A stretch of 33,026 nucleotides of DNA. Source: Candidatus Omnitrophota bacterium (lineage in GTDB: Bacteria > Omnitrophota > Gorgyraeia > Pluralincolimonadales > Pluralincolimonadaceae). Within the stretch, counting starts at the first letter, position 1. Every line of letters begins with the position of its first letter. Below, piece by piece: positions 6,010 through 21,783 of the stretch. The notes beneath the pieces were generated by a model that saw nothing but the letters and a program-made list of their open reading frames with translations, was not told where the DNA came from and searched no databases. Position numbers and translations under genes: made by a program. The stretch spans positions 70,379 through 103,404 of the forward strand of contig JAQUPL010000005.1 of the NCBI GenBank assembly GCA_028716565.1, written 5' to 3'.

Positions 6010-6440
6010 TTCCCCGGCCGCAAATTCACAAGGGTCTAGAACGCGGGTCTTTTCCCCTCATCGCGCGCTTGCGGGCCCCTGCGAGGCCCGCTGCGCTTGA
6101 AATCCTCTCGCTCTCGCAGGGTATTATATACGGGCGATCCGTGCCCGCTCGAGTCTTTCCAATGCGATGAGGGGCAAAAGCCCTCGTTCTCTAATCAGTG
6201 AATTTGCTGCCGCGGCTTGTATTTAGAACTCAATATATGGCCCGTAGACCTTTGTGTCTTTTAAGCCTTGAAATTTAACGTATCGCGAAGAGCCGGTTTA
6301 TGACGCAGTAGATACCCGATCAAGGCGAGTAATAAAGAAAGGCCGAGCGAGACTTAAATTTCAAGGCGAACGTCCCTGCAAGAACACAAGGTCGAAGGGC
6401 CTGCATATATATGCAGGAAGGCGCGACACAAGCCGCGGGA
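6010..6440 (+). ncRNA. large unidentified structured element (candidate ncRNA, strand inferred)
   Basis: This gene-free stretch contains long, interrupted inverted repeats. Domain A: 6021-6029 pairs perfectly with 6198-6206, and 6039-6064 pairs with 6164-6189 (22 of 26 positions). Inside are a hairpin (6071-6077/6085-6091 extended by 6065-6068/6093-6096) and a small one (6131-6135/6143-6147). The 7-base loop 6078-6084 is fully complementary to 6114-6120, a possible pseudoknot. Domain B: an 11-bp helix 6210-6220/6428-6438 encloses 6239-6243/6397-6401, 6247-6252/6388-6393, and a perfect 14-bp helix 6265-6278/6354-6367. A palindrome lies at 6401-6416. A TATAAT at 6005-6010 overlapping the aroA stop would start a transcript near 6016, but no good -35 exists. 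No signature of RNase P RNA, tmRNA, 6S or SRP RNA was found. It could instead be a palindromic insertion element. Confidence 0.55.
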
Positions 6441-6455
6441 GGAGTGCTTTAATTA

Positions 6456-6484
6456 TTGACATTTAAAGGGTGGTTTGGTATCCT
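6456..6484 (+). promoter_or_regulatory. sigma70-type promoter of the mre operon
   Basis: A perfect TTGACA (6456-6461) is followed after 17 bases by TATCCT (6479-6484), giving a predicted start near 6491 and a leader of about 60 bases before mreB. It lies directly downstream of the structured element, so mreB need not depend on read-through from aroA. An alternative -10-like TATGAT sits at 6487-6492 but at an unfavourable spacing of 25. Confidence 0.7.
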
Positions 6485-6551: not shown

Positions 6552-7628
6552 GTGAACGTTTTCGATGTCTTAAAAAGGGGATTTAACAACATCTCCGGCA
6601 TGTTCAGTAACGACATGGGCATCGACCTTGGCACCGCGAGCACGCTCGTTTACGTAAAAGGCCAAGGGATAGTGCTTTGCGAACCTTCGGTCGTCGCCAT
6701 ACAGAAGGGGACTAACCACGTCCTGGCGGTCGGCGAAGAGGCGAAGCGGATGTTAGGCCGTACCCCCGGTTCGATAGTGGCTATAAGGCCGATGAAAGAC
6801 GGAGTTATCGCTGATTTCGAAATAACGGAGGCGATGCTCCGTTATTTTATTAATAAGGTCCACAACAGGCGAGTTTTGGTCAGGCCGCGCATGGTCATCG
6901 CCATACCTTCCGGCATTACCGAAGTCGAGAAGCGCGCGGTCAAGGATTCTGCGGAAAGGGCAGGCGCCCGAGAGGTATACCTCGTCGAGGAGCCGATAGC
7001 CGCCGCGATAGGCGTAGGCCTGCCGATACAGGAACCCGCCGGCAACATGATAATCGACATCGGCGGCGGCACGACGGAGATGGCGGTAGTCTCTCTCTCG
7101 GACGTCGTATACTCGAAATCGATCCGCATAGGCGGCGACGAGATGGACGACGCGATAATTCAGCACCTGAAAAAGACTTATAACCTCATGATCGGCGAAC
7201 GCACCGCCGAGGAGATAAAGATAAAGATAGGCTCGGCTTACCCGCTCGAGGAAGAGATGACGATGGAAGTCCGCGGCCGCGATCTGGTGGCAGGTCTTCC
7301 AAAGACAGTCACAATATCTTCTGAGGAGGTAAGAGAGGCTCTTGCTGAGCCAATAGCTGCCATAGTGGAGGCGGTCAGGATTACCCTCGAGCGCACACCG
7401 CCGGAGCTTTCCGCAGACCTGATAGAGCGCGGGATGGTCCTGGCAGGAGGCGGCGGATTGCTGAGGGGGCTGGACAAACTCCTTTCGGAACAGACCGGCC
7501 TTCCCGTGCATATAGCGGAGGATCCGATAACCGCGGTCGCCCTCGGGACAGGGATGGTATTAAGCGAAATAAAGTATCTCAAAAAAGTTACGGTTACTAC
7601 CGCTTCTAAGTCCCCTGAATCACAGTAA
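6552..7628 (+). CDS. mreB: rod shape-determining protein MreB
   Basis: Actin-like ATPase that forms membrane-bound filaments guiding lateral cell-wall synthesis. The 358-residue protein shows phosphate-1 [13 protein letters not shown] (from D25), phosphate-2 [13 protein letters not shown], and adenosine-binding [12 protein letters not shown]. The N-terminal [16 protein letters not shown] resembles the amphipathic membrane-binding helix that precedes SNDLSIDLGT in E. coli MreB. The start is GTG 6552 with GAGGTG four bases upstream, and no ATG is available before the conserved region. It is the first gene of a co-directional mreBCD-mrdA-rodA operon and has its own predicted promoter. Confidence 0.98.
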
Positions 7629-8951: not shown

Positions 8952-10676
8952 ATGCGCGGCAGGATCTATTCGATAATAGTAGATGTCTTATTCCTGGTCA
9001 TACTGGCGGGGTTGGCCTATCTCCAGATATTGAGGTGGCCGCTCTACCACGACCTCTCAAGGAAGAACCACATAAGGCTGATACCGATGCCCGGCCTGCG
9101 CGGCACTATCTATGACAGGAACGGCCTCGCCATAGTCGATAACCGCCTTTCTTTCGACGTGGTCATCATTCCTCAGGAGGTGGAGAATGTCGATACGACA
9201 TACGGCCGTCTCTCCCGGGCCCTGGGCATTTCGAGGTCCCGCATCGAATCGATCGTGAAAAAGGATTATACCGCGCCGTTCGCGCCGATAACCATCGCCG
9301 GCGACGTCGATAAGGACCTCGCTTTCCGCCTCGAGGAGAAGAAACAGGAGCTTCCCGGCGTTCTGGTCCTGCCGAGGACCCTCCGGTGGTATATCTACGG
9401 GGAAAGGACGTCGCACCTGATCGGTTACTTAAGCCTCATAAACAAGGAAGAGCTTGAGAGACTCGGCGATTACGGGTATTCGATCAGCGACCTTGTCGGC
9501 CGTGACGGCATCGAGCGGGCCTATGACAAATACCTGAAAGGCGAGGACGGAGGCACGCAGCTGGAGGTGGACGCTACCGGCAGGCTCGTGAAGATCCTCG
9601 GAAGCAAGAACCAGAAGAAGGGCACGGATATCACCCTGACCGTCGACGTTAAACTGCAGGCTTATGCCGCAGACTGTCTCGAGGGGGTCAAAGGGTCGGT
9701 CGTCATAATGGACCCGCGCAACGGCGAGATACTTGCTATGGCGTCCTCGCCGTCATTCGACTCGAATATATTCGTCGAGCGCGGCAAGGGCGAACAGGCG
9801 GCGGGCTATATGAAATCGGGCTCGCACCCGATGCTCAACCGGGCGATAAACGGCCAGTATCCCGCGGGTTCTATCTTTAAGATAATAATGTCTGATGCCG
9901 GACTCGAGACGAAAACGATAACCGAACACTCGACTTTTGTCTGCAATGGGAAATTTTTCCTCGGCAGGGCCGAGTTCGACTGTTGGAAAGAGGGGGGACA
10001 CGGACCGCAGGACCTGCGCGACGCGATAACGCATTCATGCAACGTTTATTTCTATAATCTGGGGCACAAGCTGGGGCCGAATGTGATCTCCGAATACTCC
10101 CAGAAGTTCGGCCTCGGGAAACCTACGGGAATAGATATTGCAGGCGAGAGCTCCGGACTTGTGCCGAGCCCGGCCTGGAAAAAGGCGAAGAGGGGACAGA
10201 ACTGGTATGAGGGCGAGACGATCAATTATGCCATAGGCCAGGGGGACCTCCTGGTGACGCCGCTGCAGATGGTCGAGGTCGTCTCCGTGTTCGCGACCGA
10301 AGGCAGCGCGCCTAGGCCGCATATCATAAAGAAGATCGGCAATGCCGATGTCCAGGCACCGAAGCCGAAGACGATACCGGTCTCAAAGGCCGCGATCGAG
10401 ACCATAAAGTCCGCGATGGTGAACGCCGTCGCCTCGAATACAGGGACCGGGCAGAGGGCCAGGATAGAAGGGATAAAGGTAGCAGCGAAGACAGGCACCG
10501 CGCAGACGACTAACGGCGAACCGCACGCGTGGTTTTTGGGTTTTGCGCCCGCCGGCGATCCGAAGATAGCTTTTGTGGTGATGGTCGAACACGGCGGCCA
10601 CGGAGGCGTGACCGCAGCCGACATAGCAAAGAAGATACTCGATTTCGCGAAGGATAACACGGAAGTATTCAAATGA
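8952..10676 (+). CDS. mrdA: penicillin-binding protein 2 (elongasome transpeptidase)
   Basis: Class B penicillin-binding protein that cross-links peptidoglycan during elongation, working with RodA. The 574-residue product has an N-terminal membrane anchor (about 8-26), a PBP dimer/pedestal domain (about 50-220, including GLRGTIYDRNGLAIVDN), and a transpeptidase domain. The three active-site motifs are visible: S307-I-F-K310 (SxxK, nucleophile S307), S362-C-N364 (SxN), and K513-T-G515 (KTG). The domain start VVIMDPRNGEILAMAS is typical of PBP2. It begins 11 bases after mreD and overlaps rodA by four bases. Confidence 0.97.
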   Translation: MRGRIYSIIVDVLFLVILAGLAYLQILRWPLYHDLSRKNHIRLIPMPGLRGTIYDRNGLAIVDNRLSFDVVIIPQEVENVDTTYGRLSRALGISRSRIESIVKKDYTAPFAPITIAGDVDKDLAFRLEEKKQELPGVLVLPRTLRWYIYGERTSHLIGYLSLINKEELERLGDYGYSISDLVGRDGIERAYDKYLKGEDGGTQLEVDATGRLVKILGSKNQKKGTDITLTVDVKLQAYAADCLEGVKGSVVIMDPRNGEILAMASSPSFDSNIFVERGKGEQAAGYMKSGSHPMLNRAINGQYPAGSIFKIIMSDAGLETKTITEHSTFVCNGKFFLGRAEFDCWKEGGHGPQDLRDAITHSCNVYFYNLGHKLGPNVISEYSQKFGLGKPTGIDIAGESSGLVPSPAWKKAKRGQNWYEGETINYAIGQGDLLVTPLQMVEVVSVFATEGSAPRPHIIKKIGNADVQAPKPKTIPVSKAAIETIKSAMVNAVASNTGTGQRARIEGIKVAAKTGTAQTTNGEPHAWFLGFAPAGDPKIAFVVMVEHGGHGGVTAADIAKKILDFAKDNTEVFK

Positions 10677-16010: not shown

Positions 16011-16457
16011 ATGGCGTCGGTAAAGCGCGTAATAACTAAAACAATAGGACAGCTCCTCCTGGAAAAAGGCGTGATAAAACAGGCGCATCTCGAAGAGGCC
16101 TTGAAGATCCAGAAGGAGAAGGGCGGGCTTTTAGGCCAGATCCTGGCTGGTCTGGGATATGTAACTGAAGAGCAAATAGCCCAAGCCATCACGGTCCAAT
16201 ACGGCTTCCCGTACCTTCCGCTGGCTAATTACGAGATGGACGAGTCGGCGATAAAGATGGTGCCTGAGAATGTCGCGCGCCAGTATTGCCTTATCCCGAT
16301 AGATAAGATCGGCAATACCGTGACCATCGCGATGGCCGATCCCCTTAACATCCAGGCCGTCGAAGACATAGAGCTGGTGACCGGCTGCTCGATACAGATA
16401 TTCGTTTCAACGGCGACCGACATAAAGCAGGCGATAGACAAGTTCTACAAAAAATAG
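16011..16457 (+). CDS. stand-alone MshEN-domain (PilB N-terminal-like) protein
   Basis: 148 residues corresponding to the N-terminal module of the two downstream PilB proteins, with no ATPase domain. It has two tandem MshEN-type 24-residue motifs: IGQLLLEKG...L...AL..Q and LLGQILAGLG...I...I..Q. The second half is the GspE/PilB N-terminal fold (VPENVARQYCLIPIDKIGN, VTIAMADPLNIQAVEDIE), which aligns without gaps to both PilBs. MshEN domains of MshE and related ATPases bind cyclic-di-GMP, so this may be a free sensor or adaptor subunit. Nothing suggests decay: the frame is intact and it ends cleanly in a TAG 16 bases before the next gene. It starts six bases after pilT. Confidence 0.88.
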   Translation: MASVKRVITKTIGQLLLEKGVIKQAHLEEALKIQKEKGGLLGQILAGLGYVTEEQIAQAITVQYGFPYLPLANYEMDESAIKMVPENVARQYCLIPIDKIGNTVTIAMADPLNIQAVEDIELVTGCSIQIFVSTATDIKQAIDKFYKK

Positions 16458-16473
16458 GAGACCCTGACAGCCG

Positions 16474-18177
16474 ATGCCATCTGGGATCAAGGAACGGCTA
16501 AGCGAGATACTGATAAAAAAAGGGGCTATAACCGAAGAGAAATTAAACCAGGCCCTTCAAGCCCAGAAAGAGAAGGGCGGTTCGCTGGGAGACATCCTTG
16601 TCTCTTTGGGAGCCATAACCCAGAGGGATCTTTTAGCGATACTAAGCCAGGAACTCGGCATCCCGCCGATATCCCTTTCCAAATTCAAGATCGACCCTGA
16701 AATAACGAAGTTCATCCCGAAAAAGATCGCCGCCAATTACCAGATCATGCCTATATCGAAGATGGGTAATGTCCTGACCGTCGCGATGGCCGACCCGCTT
16801 AATGTCTTCGCGCTCGACGACATAAGGAATGTCACGGGTATGGATATCACGCCCATCATAACCACACAGGACGATGTGAAGGCCGCGATAGAGCAGCATT
16901 ACGGCAGCGCGGCGACATCCACCATCGAAGCGCTGGTAAAGGAGACGAATATAGAGCTCATCTCTTCCAGGAGAATAGAAGATGAGTCTGTCGAGGTGCT
17001 GGGCGCGGTCGCTGATACCCCTGTGGTAAAACTTACGAACGCCATAGTCCTGGACGCGACAAAAGCGCGGGCGAGCGATATCCTGATAGAGCCGATGGAA
17101 GACCACCTGCGCGTCAGGTATAAGATCGACGGGATATTCAGGGAAGCGCAGTCGCTTCCAAGGTCTATACAATCGGGCATAATATCCAGGATAAAAGTCA
17201 TGTCGAACCTCAATATCGCCGAGCGGCGCCTGCCCCAGGACGGCAGGTTCAAGATAAAGGTGCAGGAGAGGGAAGTCGACTTCAGGGTCTCGACAGTCCC
17301 GACCGCGTTCGGCGAAAAAGTGGCGCTCAGGATCCTCGATAAATCCCAGGCCATGCTCGATGTAGATAAGCTGGGTTTCGAGAAGGAACCTCTCGACGAG
17401 CTCAAGAAGGCCTCGAGGAGGCCCCACGGGATGATACTCGTCTGCGGCCCGGCGGGTTCCGGCAAGACGACTACGCTCTACTCGGTCATCAAGCATATAG
17501 ACGCTCCGGAAAAGAATTTTGTCACCGTAGAAGACCCGGTCGAATACCTGCTCCCCGGGATAAACCAGGTCAATATAAACCCGAATATCGGGTTGACATA
17601 CGCGGCCACTCTCCGTTCGATATTGCGCCAGGACCCGAACGTCATAATGGTAGGCGAGATAAGGGACCTCGAGACCGTCGACATCGCGATAAAGGCTGCG
17701 CTGACCGGACACCTCGTCCTAAGCACGCTGCATACCAACACGGCGACCGGTGTCATCATGAGGCTGATGAACATGGGCGTCGAGCCGTTCCTCATCAGTT
17801 CGTCGGTGGTACTTGTCGCGGCCCAACGGCTTGTCAGGAAGGTATGCCCGCGCTGTAAGGAAGTCCAGGAAATCCACAAGACATTACTCGAAAAACTTAA
17901 GATAAAGGCGCCGGAGAATGTGAAGTTTTACAAGGGCAAAGGTTGCGATCATTGTTTCAAGACCGGGTTCAGGGGAAGGGTAGGCCTTATAGAAGCGGTA
18001 GCTATAAACGCGGAGTTGAGGGAATTGATCGCCAAGAGGGCGCACGAGAGCACCGTATACGAAGCGGCGCGCCGCGCCGGGCTCGTAACTTTAAGGGAGA
18101 GCGGATTAAGGAAGGTATTTGACGGCACCACGACCCTAGAGGAGGTAGTGCGCGTGACCCTCGGCGAGCAGGATTAA
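16474..18177 (+). CDS. pilB: type IV pilus assembly/extension ATPase, PilB type (copy 1)
   Basis: GspE/PilB-family ATPase expected to drive pilus polymerisation with PilC. The 567-residue protein has an N-terminal MshEN/T2SSE-N module (about 1-145; RLSEILIKKGAIT and SLGDILVSLGAIT repeats) and the ATPase domain from about 170. The domain carries Walker A GPAGSGKTT (325-333), Asp box VEDPVEY, RQDPNVIMVGEIRD (Walker B), the His box LTGHLVLSTLHTNTA, and a tetracysteine zinc site (CPRC...CDHC). All catalytic motifs are canonical, so of the two copies this looks the most conventional. The ribosome site GGAG (16457-16460) is rather far, 13 bases, from the ATG. Three bases separate it from copy 2. 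Confidence 0.95.
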   Translation: MPSGIKERLSEILIKKGAITEEKLNQALQAQKEKGGSLGDILVSLGAITQRDLLAILSQELGIPPISLSKFKIDPEITKFIPKKIAANYQIMPISKMGNVLTVAMADPLNVFALDDIRNVTGMDITPIITTQDDVKAAIEQHYGSAATSTIEALVKETNIELISSRRIEDESVEVLGAVADTPVVKLTNAIVLDATKARASDILIEPMEDHLRVRYKIDGIFREAQSLPRSIQSGIISRIKVMSNLNIAERRLPQDGRFKIKVQEREVDFRVSTVPTAFGEKVALRILDKSQAMLDVDKLGFEKEPLDELKKASRRPHGMILVCGPAGSGKTTTLYSVIKHIDAPEKNFVTVEDPVEYLLPGINQVNINPNIGLTYAATLRSILRQDPNVIMVGEIRDLETVDIAIKAALTGHLVLSTLHTNTATGVIMRLMNMGVEPFLISSSVVLVAAQRLVRKVCPRCKEVQEIHKTLLEKLKIKAPENVKFYKGKGCDHCFKTGFRGRVGLIEAVAINAELRELIAKRAHESTVYEAARRAGLVTLRESGLRKVFDGTTTLEEVVRVTLGEQD

Positions 18178-18180
18178 GCC

Positions 18181-19926
18181 ATGGCCCAGAGCATAAGGGA
18201 TAAATTAGCCGAAGTCCTCGTTAAGAAGGGCTCCATTTCGAAAGAAAAACTGGACGAGGCGATAAAAGCCCAGAAGGCGCATGGCGGCAGCCTGAGCAAG
18301 ATCCTTGTGCAGAAGGGGCTCGCCAACGAGAATGACCTCCTCGCGATATTCAGCCAGGAACTTAATATTACCCCGATAAACCTGGCGAAATACAAAATAG
18401 ACAAGGAGATCATCTCGCTCGTGCCGGAGAAGATCGCGCGGCTTTACCACCTTATCCCTGTCTCGAAGATCGGCAACCGTATGACAGTAGCCATGTCCGA
18501 TCCGCTCGATATATTCGCCCTCGACGACCTGAAGATTCTCACCAAATACGAGATAGACCCTGTTATAGCGACCGACAAGGATATAATCGCGGCGATCGCA
18601 AGCTATTACGGGGAAGAAGTGTTCTCAATAGATAAATTGGTAAAAGATGCCAAGGGCGAAGAATTGCAGCTCCTTTCGTCCGAAGACGCGGAGCGGTTCG
18701 ATGTCTCGACCCTCGCCATAGAGAGCCAGAAGGCGCCGATACTCAAGATGGTCGACGTCATTATAAGCGAGGCGCTCAAACGCCGCGCCTCTGACATCCA
18801 TGTCGAGCCGATGGAGACTGACCTGCGCCTGCGCTACCGTATCGACGGCGCCCTCACGGAATTCTCGCACCTGCCGAAATCGAACCAGAACGCGGTGCTT
18901 ACCAGGATCAAGATAATGTCGGATATGGATATCACCGAATGGCGCCTACCGCAGGACGGCAGGTTCAAGGTGAGGATGGAGGAGAGGGAGATAGATTTCC
19001 GCGTCTCTACCCTGCCGCTGGTCCACGGCGAGAAGGTCGTCCTGAGGGTCCTCGATAAATCGAGCATAAAAGTTTCCCCTGAAAAGCTGGGCTTTCTTCC
19101 CAAGACCCTGGAGGAATTGAGGGAAGCCATCTCCAGGCCTTACGGGATGTTCTTGGTGACCGGCCCGACAGGGAGCGGCAAGTCCACGACCCTTTATTCC
19201 ATCCTTAACATATTGAATACGCCGGAAAAGAATATCGTCACCATAGAAGACCCGATCGAATATGAGCTCATGGGGATAACCCAGGTGCAGGTCAAGCCGG
19301 AGATAGGCCTTACCTTCGCGGGCGGCCTGCGCGCTTTCCTGCGCCAGGCGCCGGATATCGTGATGGTCGGGGAGATCCGCGATTTCGAGACCGCGGATAT
19401 CGCCATCAAAGCGTCGCTTACCGGACAGCTGCTCCTTTCAACACTGCACACGAATGACGCGCCGAGCGCCATAACGAGGCTTATAGATATGGGCGTCGAG
19501 CCGTTTTTGGTCGCCTCCAGCGTGGTATTCATATGCGCGCAGAGGCTGATGAAGAGGGTATGCGCGAATTGCAAGGAGAAGATCGATATCCCGAAGGAGA
19601 TGCTGGATAAGTTAGGATATAAGGAAAGGTCTAAAGGCCCTGAGGGGTCTAAAGGCCCTGAGGGGTCCAAGGCGGTTTTTTATAAGGGGAAAGGGTGCGC
19701 CAAGTGCAACAATACCGGCTATTACGGGAGGTTCGCCATCCTCGAAAACCTCACTGTAGACGACAAGATAAAAGAGATGATACTTGACAGGGTGCAGAGC
19801 GATAAGATAAAAGAATATGCTATGAAGGAAAAGGGGATGCTCACCCTGCGCGCGGCGGCGCTCGAAAACCTGGCTTTGGGGAATACCACGGTTGAGGAAG
19901 TCTTGAGGGTAACGTCGGAGGAATAA
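18181..19926 (+). CDS. pilB: type IV pilus assembly ATPase, PilB type (copy 2, divergent motifs)
   Basis: Second GspE/PilB-family ATPase, 581 residues, with the same layout: MshEN module (KLAEVLVKKGSIS, SLSKILVQKGLAN), then the ATPase domain. Walker A GPTGSGKST is intact (from G328, K334), as are DPIEY, MVGEIRD and the zinc cysteines (CANC...CAKC). Two normally conserved positions differ from copy 1: RQDP reads RQAP (A390), and the His-box TGH reads TGQ. The zinc domain carries an SKGPEG duplication from an 18-base tandem repeat. It may be a specialised or partner subunit of copy 1. It is coupled to pilC, whose GTG directly abuts the stop. Confidence 0.93.
   Translation: MAQSIRDKLAEVLVKKGSISKEKLDEAIKAQKAHGGSLSKILVQKGLANENDLLAIFSQELNITPINLAKYKIDKEIISLVPEKIARLYHLIPVSKIGNRMTVAMSDPLDIFALDDLKILTKYEIDPVIATDKDIIAAIASYYGEEVFSIDKLVKDAKGEELQLLSSEDAERFDVSTLAIESQKAPILKMVDVIISEALKRRASDIHVEPMETDLRLRYRIDGALTEFSHLPKSNQNAVLTRIKIMSDMDITEWRLPQDGRFKVRMEEREIDFRVSTLPLVHGEKVVLRVLDKSSIKVSPEKLGFLPKTLEELREAISRPYGMFLVTGPTGSGKSTTLYSILNILNTPEKNIVTIEDPIEYELMGITQVQVKPEIGLTFAGGLRAFLRQAPDIVMVGEIRDFETADIAIKASLTGQLLLSTLHTNDAPSAITRLIDMGVEPFLVASSVVFICAQRLMKRVCANCKEKIDIPKEMLDKLGYKERSKGPEGSKGPEGSKAVFYKGKGCAKCNNTGYYGRFAILENLTVDDKIKEMILDRVQSDKIKEYAMKEKGMLTLRAAALENLALGNTTVEEVLRVTSEE
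19628..19663 (+). repeat. 18-base tandem repeat, two perfect units, inside pilB copy 2
   Basis: Unit GGTCTAAAGGCCCTGAGG at 19628-19645 is repeated exactly at 19646-19663, with a partial third copy (GGTCCAAGG) following. It is in frame and encodes SKGPEG twice in the linker between the two cysteine pairs of the zinc domain. This is a likely slippage-prone, length-variable site. Confidence 0.9.
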
Positions 19927-21705: not shown

Positions 21706-21715
21706 GTTATACTTG

Positions 21716-21774
21716 CCCTGAGCCCTTCAGCGGAGTTTACCCTGAGCGGAGCCGAAGGGCTCAGGGTAAACTCC
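21716..21774. repeat. nested, mutually exclusive inverted repeats (REP-like palindrome)
   Basis: Two perfect inverted repeats overlap. CCCTGAGCCCTTC (21716-21728) pairs with 21754-21766, and GGAGTTTACCCTGAGC (21732-21747) pairs with 21759-21774. They share 21759-21766, so only one hairpin can form at a time. There is no T-run. The element lies between the pilin 1 terminator and the pilin 2 promoter. It resembles dispersed intergenic palindromes of many genomes, but copy number cannot be judged from one window. Confidence 0.8.
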
Positions 21775-21783
21775 GGTAAAGGG

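Follow-up and report, generated by a model that had tools for sequence, protein, structure and literature searches.

The 430-base stretch between aroA and mreB in a genome of a Candidatus Omnitrophota bacterium is very probably built from several palindromic interspersed repeats, non-autonomous and MITE-like, which are stacked and nested and can flip in place. Three modules can be told apart (Table 1): a branched palindrome, A, stands beside a related branched palindrome, B, into which a shorter hairpin element, C, would have been inserted. On the best reading, the three are new, genus-restricted families of a known kind, the bacterial palindromic or MITE-like interspersed repeat. Indeed, C and A are short (105 nt and ~200 nt, respectively), non-coding, multi-copy and mainly intergenic, and inverted terminal arms, a highly base-paired structure and both filled and empty sites among close relatives are also found. 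A preliminary description of this DNA had proposed either a novel large noncoding RNA (ncRNA) or a palindromic mobile repeat; it is the second option that gains support, as the modules recur alone or combined, sites are filled or empty, unrelated palindromes share the same gaps and orientations flip.

Genomic setting

The window, that is, the whole stretch of DNA analysed (33 026 nucleotides; G000:C5:70379-103404), belongs to a genome (G000) of 18 contigs and 1.73 Mb. Within it, aroA, encoding EPSP synthase (its product matches EPSP_synthase), extends to 6009, and the start of mreB, with a product that matches MreB_Mbl, is at 6552, which bears out the earlier statement that the stretch is gene-free. 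A scan of the + strand of this region gave a single promoter-like site, that of mreB, downstream of the repeats, and no site resembling a terminator. Since the putative mreB promoter follows the composite, the latter is outside the mreB leader.

The comparisons made here rest on chosen stretches of the genomes, and all of the compared genomes are MAGs or drafts, in which repeats break assemblies; the completeness of the four sister species (G001-G004) varies from 68 to 97%.

Table 1. Features of the aroA-mreB region (window coordinates).
Feature	Position	Strand	Basis
Module A, ~200-bp palindromic repeat with a long outer stem and two internal hairpins	6014..6212	+	Copies in 5 genomes of the genus
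Module A outer stem	6021-6029/6198-6206; 6038-6064/6164-6190	+	Sequence
Module A inner hairpin P2 (GCGGGCCCC..GGCCCGC)	6071..6092	+	Sequence; present in 9/9 copies
Module A inner hairpin P3, with superfamily motif CTCGCTCTC...CCGTGCCCGCTCGA (motif at 6139-6152)	6100..6160	+	Motif common to B-, D- and E-type palindromes
Module B, palindromic repeat interrupted by C; outer arms 6210-6220/6428-6438 (ACAAGCCGCGG)	6206..6441	-	Copies both with and without C among G001-G004; part of the core in G007
Module C, a hairpin element of 105 nt, dispersed and lying within B	6264..6368	+	Copies found with covariance model R1; covariation
Left arm of module C (GCCTTGAAATTTAA)	6265..6278	+	Pairs perfectly with 6354-6367 (14-bp inverted repeat)
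Conserved core of module C, 5' strand (GCGAAGAGCCGGTTTATGACGCAG)	6285..6308	+	Nearly invariant in 35 copies
Apical loop of module C, hypervariable	6309..6324	+	39% different between orthologous sites
Conserved core of module C, 3' strand (GCGAGTAATAAAGAAAGGCCGAGCG)	6325..6349	+	Nearly invariant in 35 copies
Right arm of module C (TTAAATTTCAAGGC)	6354..6367	+	Pairs with 6265-6278
Putative mreB promoter, TTGACA-17-TATCCT	6456..6484	+	Promoter-like site kept across the genus; similar in genus g2

Inverted repeats and fold of the stretch

The inverted repeats are genuine and far exceed what chance would produce. All of the arms previously listed are present to within about one base: the two parts of the outer stem of A (the first inside a longer repeat, I1; the second, I2, at 85%), the arms of C (I3, 14/14) and the outer arms of B (I4, 6207-6220/6428-6441). 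The longest exact inverted repeat measures 14 bp, as against a maximum of 12 across 300 dinucleotide shuffles, and the long inverted repeats with arms at most 400 bases apart in the 33 kb window are clustered in the aroA-mreB stretch. As RNA, the stretch folds with -184.3 kcal/mol, compared with -141.4 ± 5.5 kcal/mol for shuffled sequences (z of -7.85), and none of the 100 shuffles was as stable.

The Rfam search that had been suggested gave no match in the window, where no family reached its curated gathering threshold, and none in the stretch even at E values up to 5; a search for tRNA and tmRNA likewise found none. The earlier remark that no core of RNase P RNA, tmRNA, 6S or SRP RNA is present thus holds, and these RNAs, together with any other Rfam family, can be set aside on the absence of an Rfam match. 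Such a stable fold without a counterpart in Rfam would favour the view of the 430 bases as one novel large ncRNA. This reading now appears very improbable, since the modules behave independently of each other: in the sister species they occur apart, reordered, reoriented or not at all in the same gap. In the aroA-mreB gap of G004 the A+B block is reversed and lacks C; in that of G002 (L028) only B is found, reversed, with an additional, unassigned gene after it and then a D-type palindrome next to mreB; and the gap of genus g2 holds none of the modules A, B and C. The lone promoter-like site downstream and the lack of a terminator-like site on the + strand also speak against a separate RNA gene. 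Of the 'two-domain element' described earlier, the structure is real, but its parts are three repeat modules that can be separated, C lying within B.

Distribution of module C

A search of the source genome with the stretch returned the inner 100 bases of the former 'domain B', which correspond to C, at about ten more places with 83-92% identity, in addition to weaker matches. Many near-identical copies had been named as a sign of a repeat; the copies are indeed many, but only 83-92% alike. With a covariance model built from 19 copies (R1), 14 copies of C were counted in G000, 11 in G003, six in G004 and four in G002; at least one was also scored in G001, and one in G008, which belongs to a different genus. 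The remaining 143 genomes of the class yielded no copy with R1, in a search with strict filters and a limited number of candidates scored per genome, from which weak copies may escape. A pattern scan of public genomes returned only Omnitrophota, plus matches judged to be due to chance, and no C was found in viral contigs. Both the 143 negative genomes and the public-genome scan speak against a wider spread of C.

Three matches to the C pattern in the MAG ZJ1.bin59 (L151, L152 and L163) were rejected as parts of a different repeat, IS66-like to judge from the neighbouring open reading frames (ORFs). This repeat is near-identical in three contigs, in one of which it stands beside IS66-like reading frames, and its match to the C pattern is probably fortuitous.

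In G000, the copies of C occupy short gene gaps, with housekeeping genes as neighbours, or overlap shortly with gene ends, often at 8-24 bases from the adjacent reading frames. The gaps include those that we take to be murG-murC, dnaK-dnaJ, aroC-aroK, guaA-dnaE and coaX-groES, some of these names being tentative; further copies lie beside a gene for a recombinase of the phage-integrase family and before an NAD synthase gene. The groES-coaX gap (L056, ~10115-10260) also contains, upstream of groES, an inverted repeat of CIRCE-like appearance (TTAGCACTC...GAGTGCCAA).

Architecture of and constraint on module C

Two types of arm surround the single core of C, one with TTGAAATTTAA arms and the other with CAATC/GATTG arms, and the replacement of whole arms with pairing kept is visible by eye across the copies. 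Among 35 copies, 96.6% of the pair cells are standard pairs, two-sided change occurs at 17 of the 31 pairs and the covariation score is 0.299, compared with 0.086 for shuffled and at most 0.064 for slid controls, figures that are biased towards the model, as the alignment was fitted to it and the copies are related. Structure-level constraint on C is therefore real, and the compensatory changes that had been named as a test of an RNA gene are found in its stems, but they do not rescue the RNA-gene reading of the whole stretch. Between orthologous copies (nine sites and 16 pairs, which are not independent), divergence amounts to 4.5% in the core and 6.9% in the arms, against 16.9% in the flanks and 38.9% in the apical loop. 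The low divergence of the core would mean either constraint or conversion between copies.

The strong covariation, with arms fully replaced around one core, and the contrast in divergence between the core and arms and their surroundings would also suit a functional structured element, either an RNA in intercistronic mRNA or a protein-bound DNA hairpin, which spread as a repeat and is now selected site by site, A and B being ordinary repeats around it. The internal loop GA/AGUA resembles the bulged-G (loop E) motif, although this is a resemblance only, and in the same-direction gaps of G000 C lies on the strand of the genes in eight cases out of ten and on the opposite strand in two, numbers too small for a claim of bias. 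On the other hand, C is reversed with an intact core at three of the nine compared sites, the stems contain 11 G-U pairs and seven A-C mismatches, with no clear excess of the former, copies have been gained and lost, and the neighbouring genes have no common pathway; moreover, gene conversion between copies could equally keep the core. A functional C of this kind is thus possible but unlikely.

Since inverted copies of C keep the core, a strand-specific role in mRNA is not required. That the core is kept whichever way round it lies, and that the G-U excess is weak, in fact speaks against such a role, while a role at the DNA level or in a single orientation may exist. In a related and slightly more doubtful proposal, C, as a dispersed hairpin with a strict non-palindromic core and exchangeable arms that is selected in operon gaps either way round, might have started as a mobile repeat and become, in this uncultured phylum, a regulatory or chromosome-binding element that works in both orientations.

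A 27-nt hairpin (CCCCGCTCTTTCTAACGAAAGAGCGGG) flanked by repeated ACGCAG was seen within the apical loop of C in G002 and G004 (L073:3816-3951 and 9501-9636; L087:1501-1636); it resembles a very small insertion that duplicated 6 bp.

Modules A and B

Both modules recur independently in the sister species, A on its own and B without C. Nine full-length copies of A, as well as fragments, were found among five genomes of the genus (six matches in G004), and two-sided change occurs at ten of the 63 predicted pairs in the nine aligned copies. Where B is free of C (in G004 and on contig 66 of G003), it displays a branched core like that of A, in the order hairpin, CTCGCTCTC, second hairpin and CCGTGCCCGCTCGR or a close variant. 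A and B are thus branched palindromes with a common core motif, and the motif of P3 also recurs in palindromes of the D type, in this genus, and of the E type, in genus g3. A single superfamily thus seems to unite A, B, D and E, going by common motif and layout and not by any calibrated model.

The composite of A and B, with C inside B, is present at two loci of G003, aroA-mreB, where part of A is deleted, and a second gap between genes that we presume to be argS and mfd. In genus g3 (L046 and L047), B-type arms with a reverse-sense central core were noticed immediately before the promoter of mreB, where the gene context differs, as if this position were a hot spot.

Filled and empty gaps and probable inversion in place

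The aroC-aroK gap is filled by C in G000, G003 and G004 and empty in G001, G002 and G008, and in G005 one continuous match spans the gap. The dnaE-guaA gap is filled in G000, G002 and G004 and empty in G003, G005 and G008, with a 22-nt spacer in G001, and the nadE gap is filled in G000 and G003 and empty in G002 and G004. At these three filled and empty pairs the edges of the inserts are blurred and no clean target-site duplication is readable. Gaps may also hold one palindrome in place of another: before a rubredoxin-like ORF, C is found in G000 and G003 and A in G002, and in the murG-murC gap G000 has one arm type of C, G003 and G004 have the other type next to what is left of the first, and G002 has a third, unrelated palindrome. 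This last belongs to another family (GGGTGACTGCCGACGGAGCCC...GTGCTCGGCAGGCAGGACCCGC), observed in G002 in gaps that hold C in sister species (L200, murG-murC; L188, C120). A further unrelated palindrome (GGGGACGT...ACGTCCCC) was noted in the dnaK-dnaJ gap of G001 and G005 (L049 and L202), the same gap holding C in G000 and G003.

The three sites at which C is reversed between matching flanks are aroC-aroK, dnaE-guaA and C2:403. Instead of inversion in place, another copy may have been inserted independently at the same spot, the apical loops being too diverged to trace the event. Inverted arms around a short spacer and in-place inversions between species are also the marks of phase-variable switches (invertons), in which a site-specific recombinase acting on C and on A+B would control the adjacent genes. 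Such a switch is nevertheless highly unlikely: the arms of C vary between copies and the ends of A+B are quite different, so there is no common recombination site, the neighbours are housekeeping genes, and the differences in orientation seen among the MAGs are fixed ones between species.

Comparison with known repeat systems

Bacterial MITEs are typically 100-200 bp long, highly base-paired and mainly intergenic, and form long hairpins; for most accepted families, an autonomous partner with the same arms was not sought or not found (PMC2229807). A close likeness is to small inverted-repeat elements such as the Correia elements (CREE/NEMIS) of Neisseria, which measure ~100-150 bp, have inverted arms, are intergenic, may form long RNA hairpins, have filled and empty sites and are reported to invert in place as well (PMC2229807, PMC10969869). 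This likeness is claimed without a relation in sequence; the present modules differ in their copy-varying arms, low copy number and absence of a clear TA target duplication. Rickettsia palindromic elements (RPEs) similarly comprise multiple palindromic families within one lineage (PMC10969869), but often lie in frame inside genes, whereas the copies described here lie in gaps. The pneumococcal BOX, RUP and SPRITE repeats are interspersed with strong secondary structure, and BOX is a modular composite (PMC3049150); ISSpn2 and IS630-Spn1 have been proposed as insertion-sequence partners of BOX and RUP, whereas none was found for the modules studied here. Plastids, too, commonly have small inversions at hairpins, the loop lying one way round in one species and the other way round in a close relative (PMC6824564), although the loops there span 4-24 bp, compared with ~75 bp (C) to ~430 bp (A+B) here.

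REP/BIME-type repeats, mobilized by REP-associated tyrosine transposases (RAYTs), are likewise intergenic palindromes, and descriptions of REPs exist for the PVC superphylum (PMC3733652), the clade to which NCBI assigns Omnitrophota. An origin of this type is nonetheless scarcely probable, as the distribution of Y1_Tnp, which is absent from G001-G004 and occurs once in G000, does not fit that of the modules, and RAYT-driven REPs were rejected on this ground. In addition, the modules are larger (100-200 nt) and branched, and no GTAG or CGTC tag was seen at the foot of C, either in the 35 aligned copies or in their flanks.

Proposed mechanism and significance

On the MITE-like reading, a trans-acting enzyme would copy the modules into intergenic gaps, and the long inverted arms would let an insert flip by hairpin-driven template switching or by recombination. 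Copies between co-directional genes would be co-transcribed, forming tight hairpins between cistrons that may alter mRNA processing. The core of C may be kept as a structure recognized by the enzyme, by conversion between copies or through use by the host. No autonomous transposon with C-like arms was seen in G000 and G004, where the arms searched for lie in copies of C with one exception, absence in MAGs being weak evidence. Besides the absence of a clean target-site duplication and of a transposase source among the sequences searched, three findings run against the MITE-like reading: the copies are old and few; the terminal arms vary between copies yet stay complementary, which is unusual for the terminal inverted repeats of transposons; and the difference between core and flanks at orthologous sites (4.5 versus 17%) is tighter than expected of idle insertions.

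The explanation of a structured region as stacked interspersed repeats avoids the description of a false ncRNA family and adds repeat families from Omnitrophota, for which literature searches found no such description. Repeats that swap arms, keep their core and flip in place constitute a natural test of palindrome inversion in bacterial chromosomes. They also test whether covariation by itself is proof of an RNA gene, strong covariation being found here alongside mobility and inversion.

Other observations in the window

Outside the aroA-mreB stretch, the long inverted repeats of the window are a small hairpin at 21.7 kb and, at 30.6 kb, an imperfect palindrome that lies within a gene. A compact palindrome is located between two pilin-like genes at 21713-21783. 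At 16011-19926, three consecutive ORFs have similar starts, one being short (148 aa) and two long and PilB/GspE-like, which suggests that the GspE N-terminal domain may have been duplicated repeatedly.
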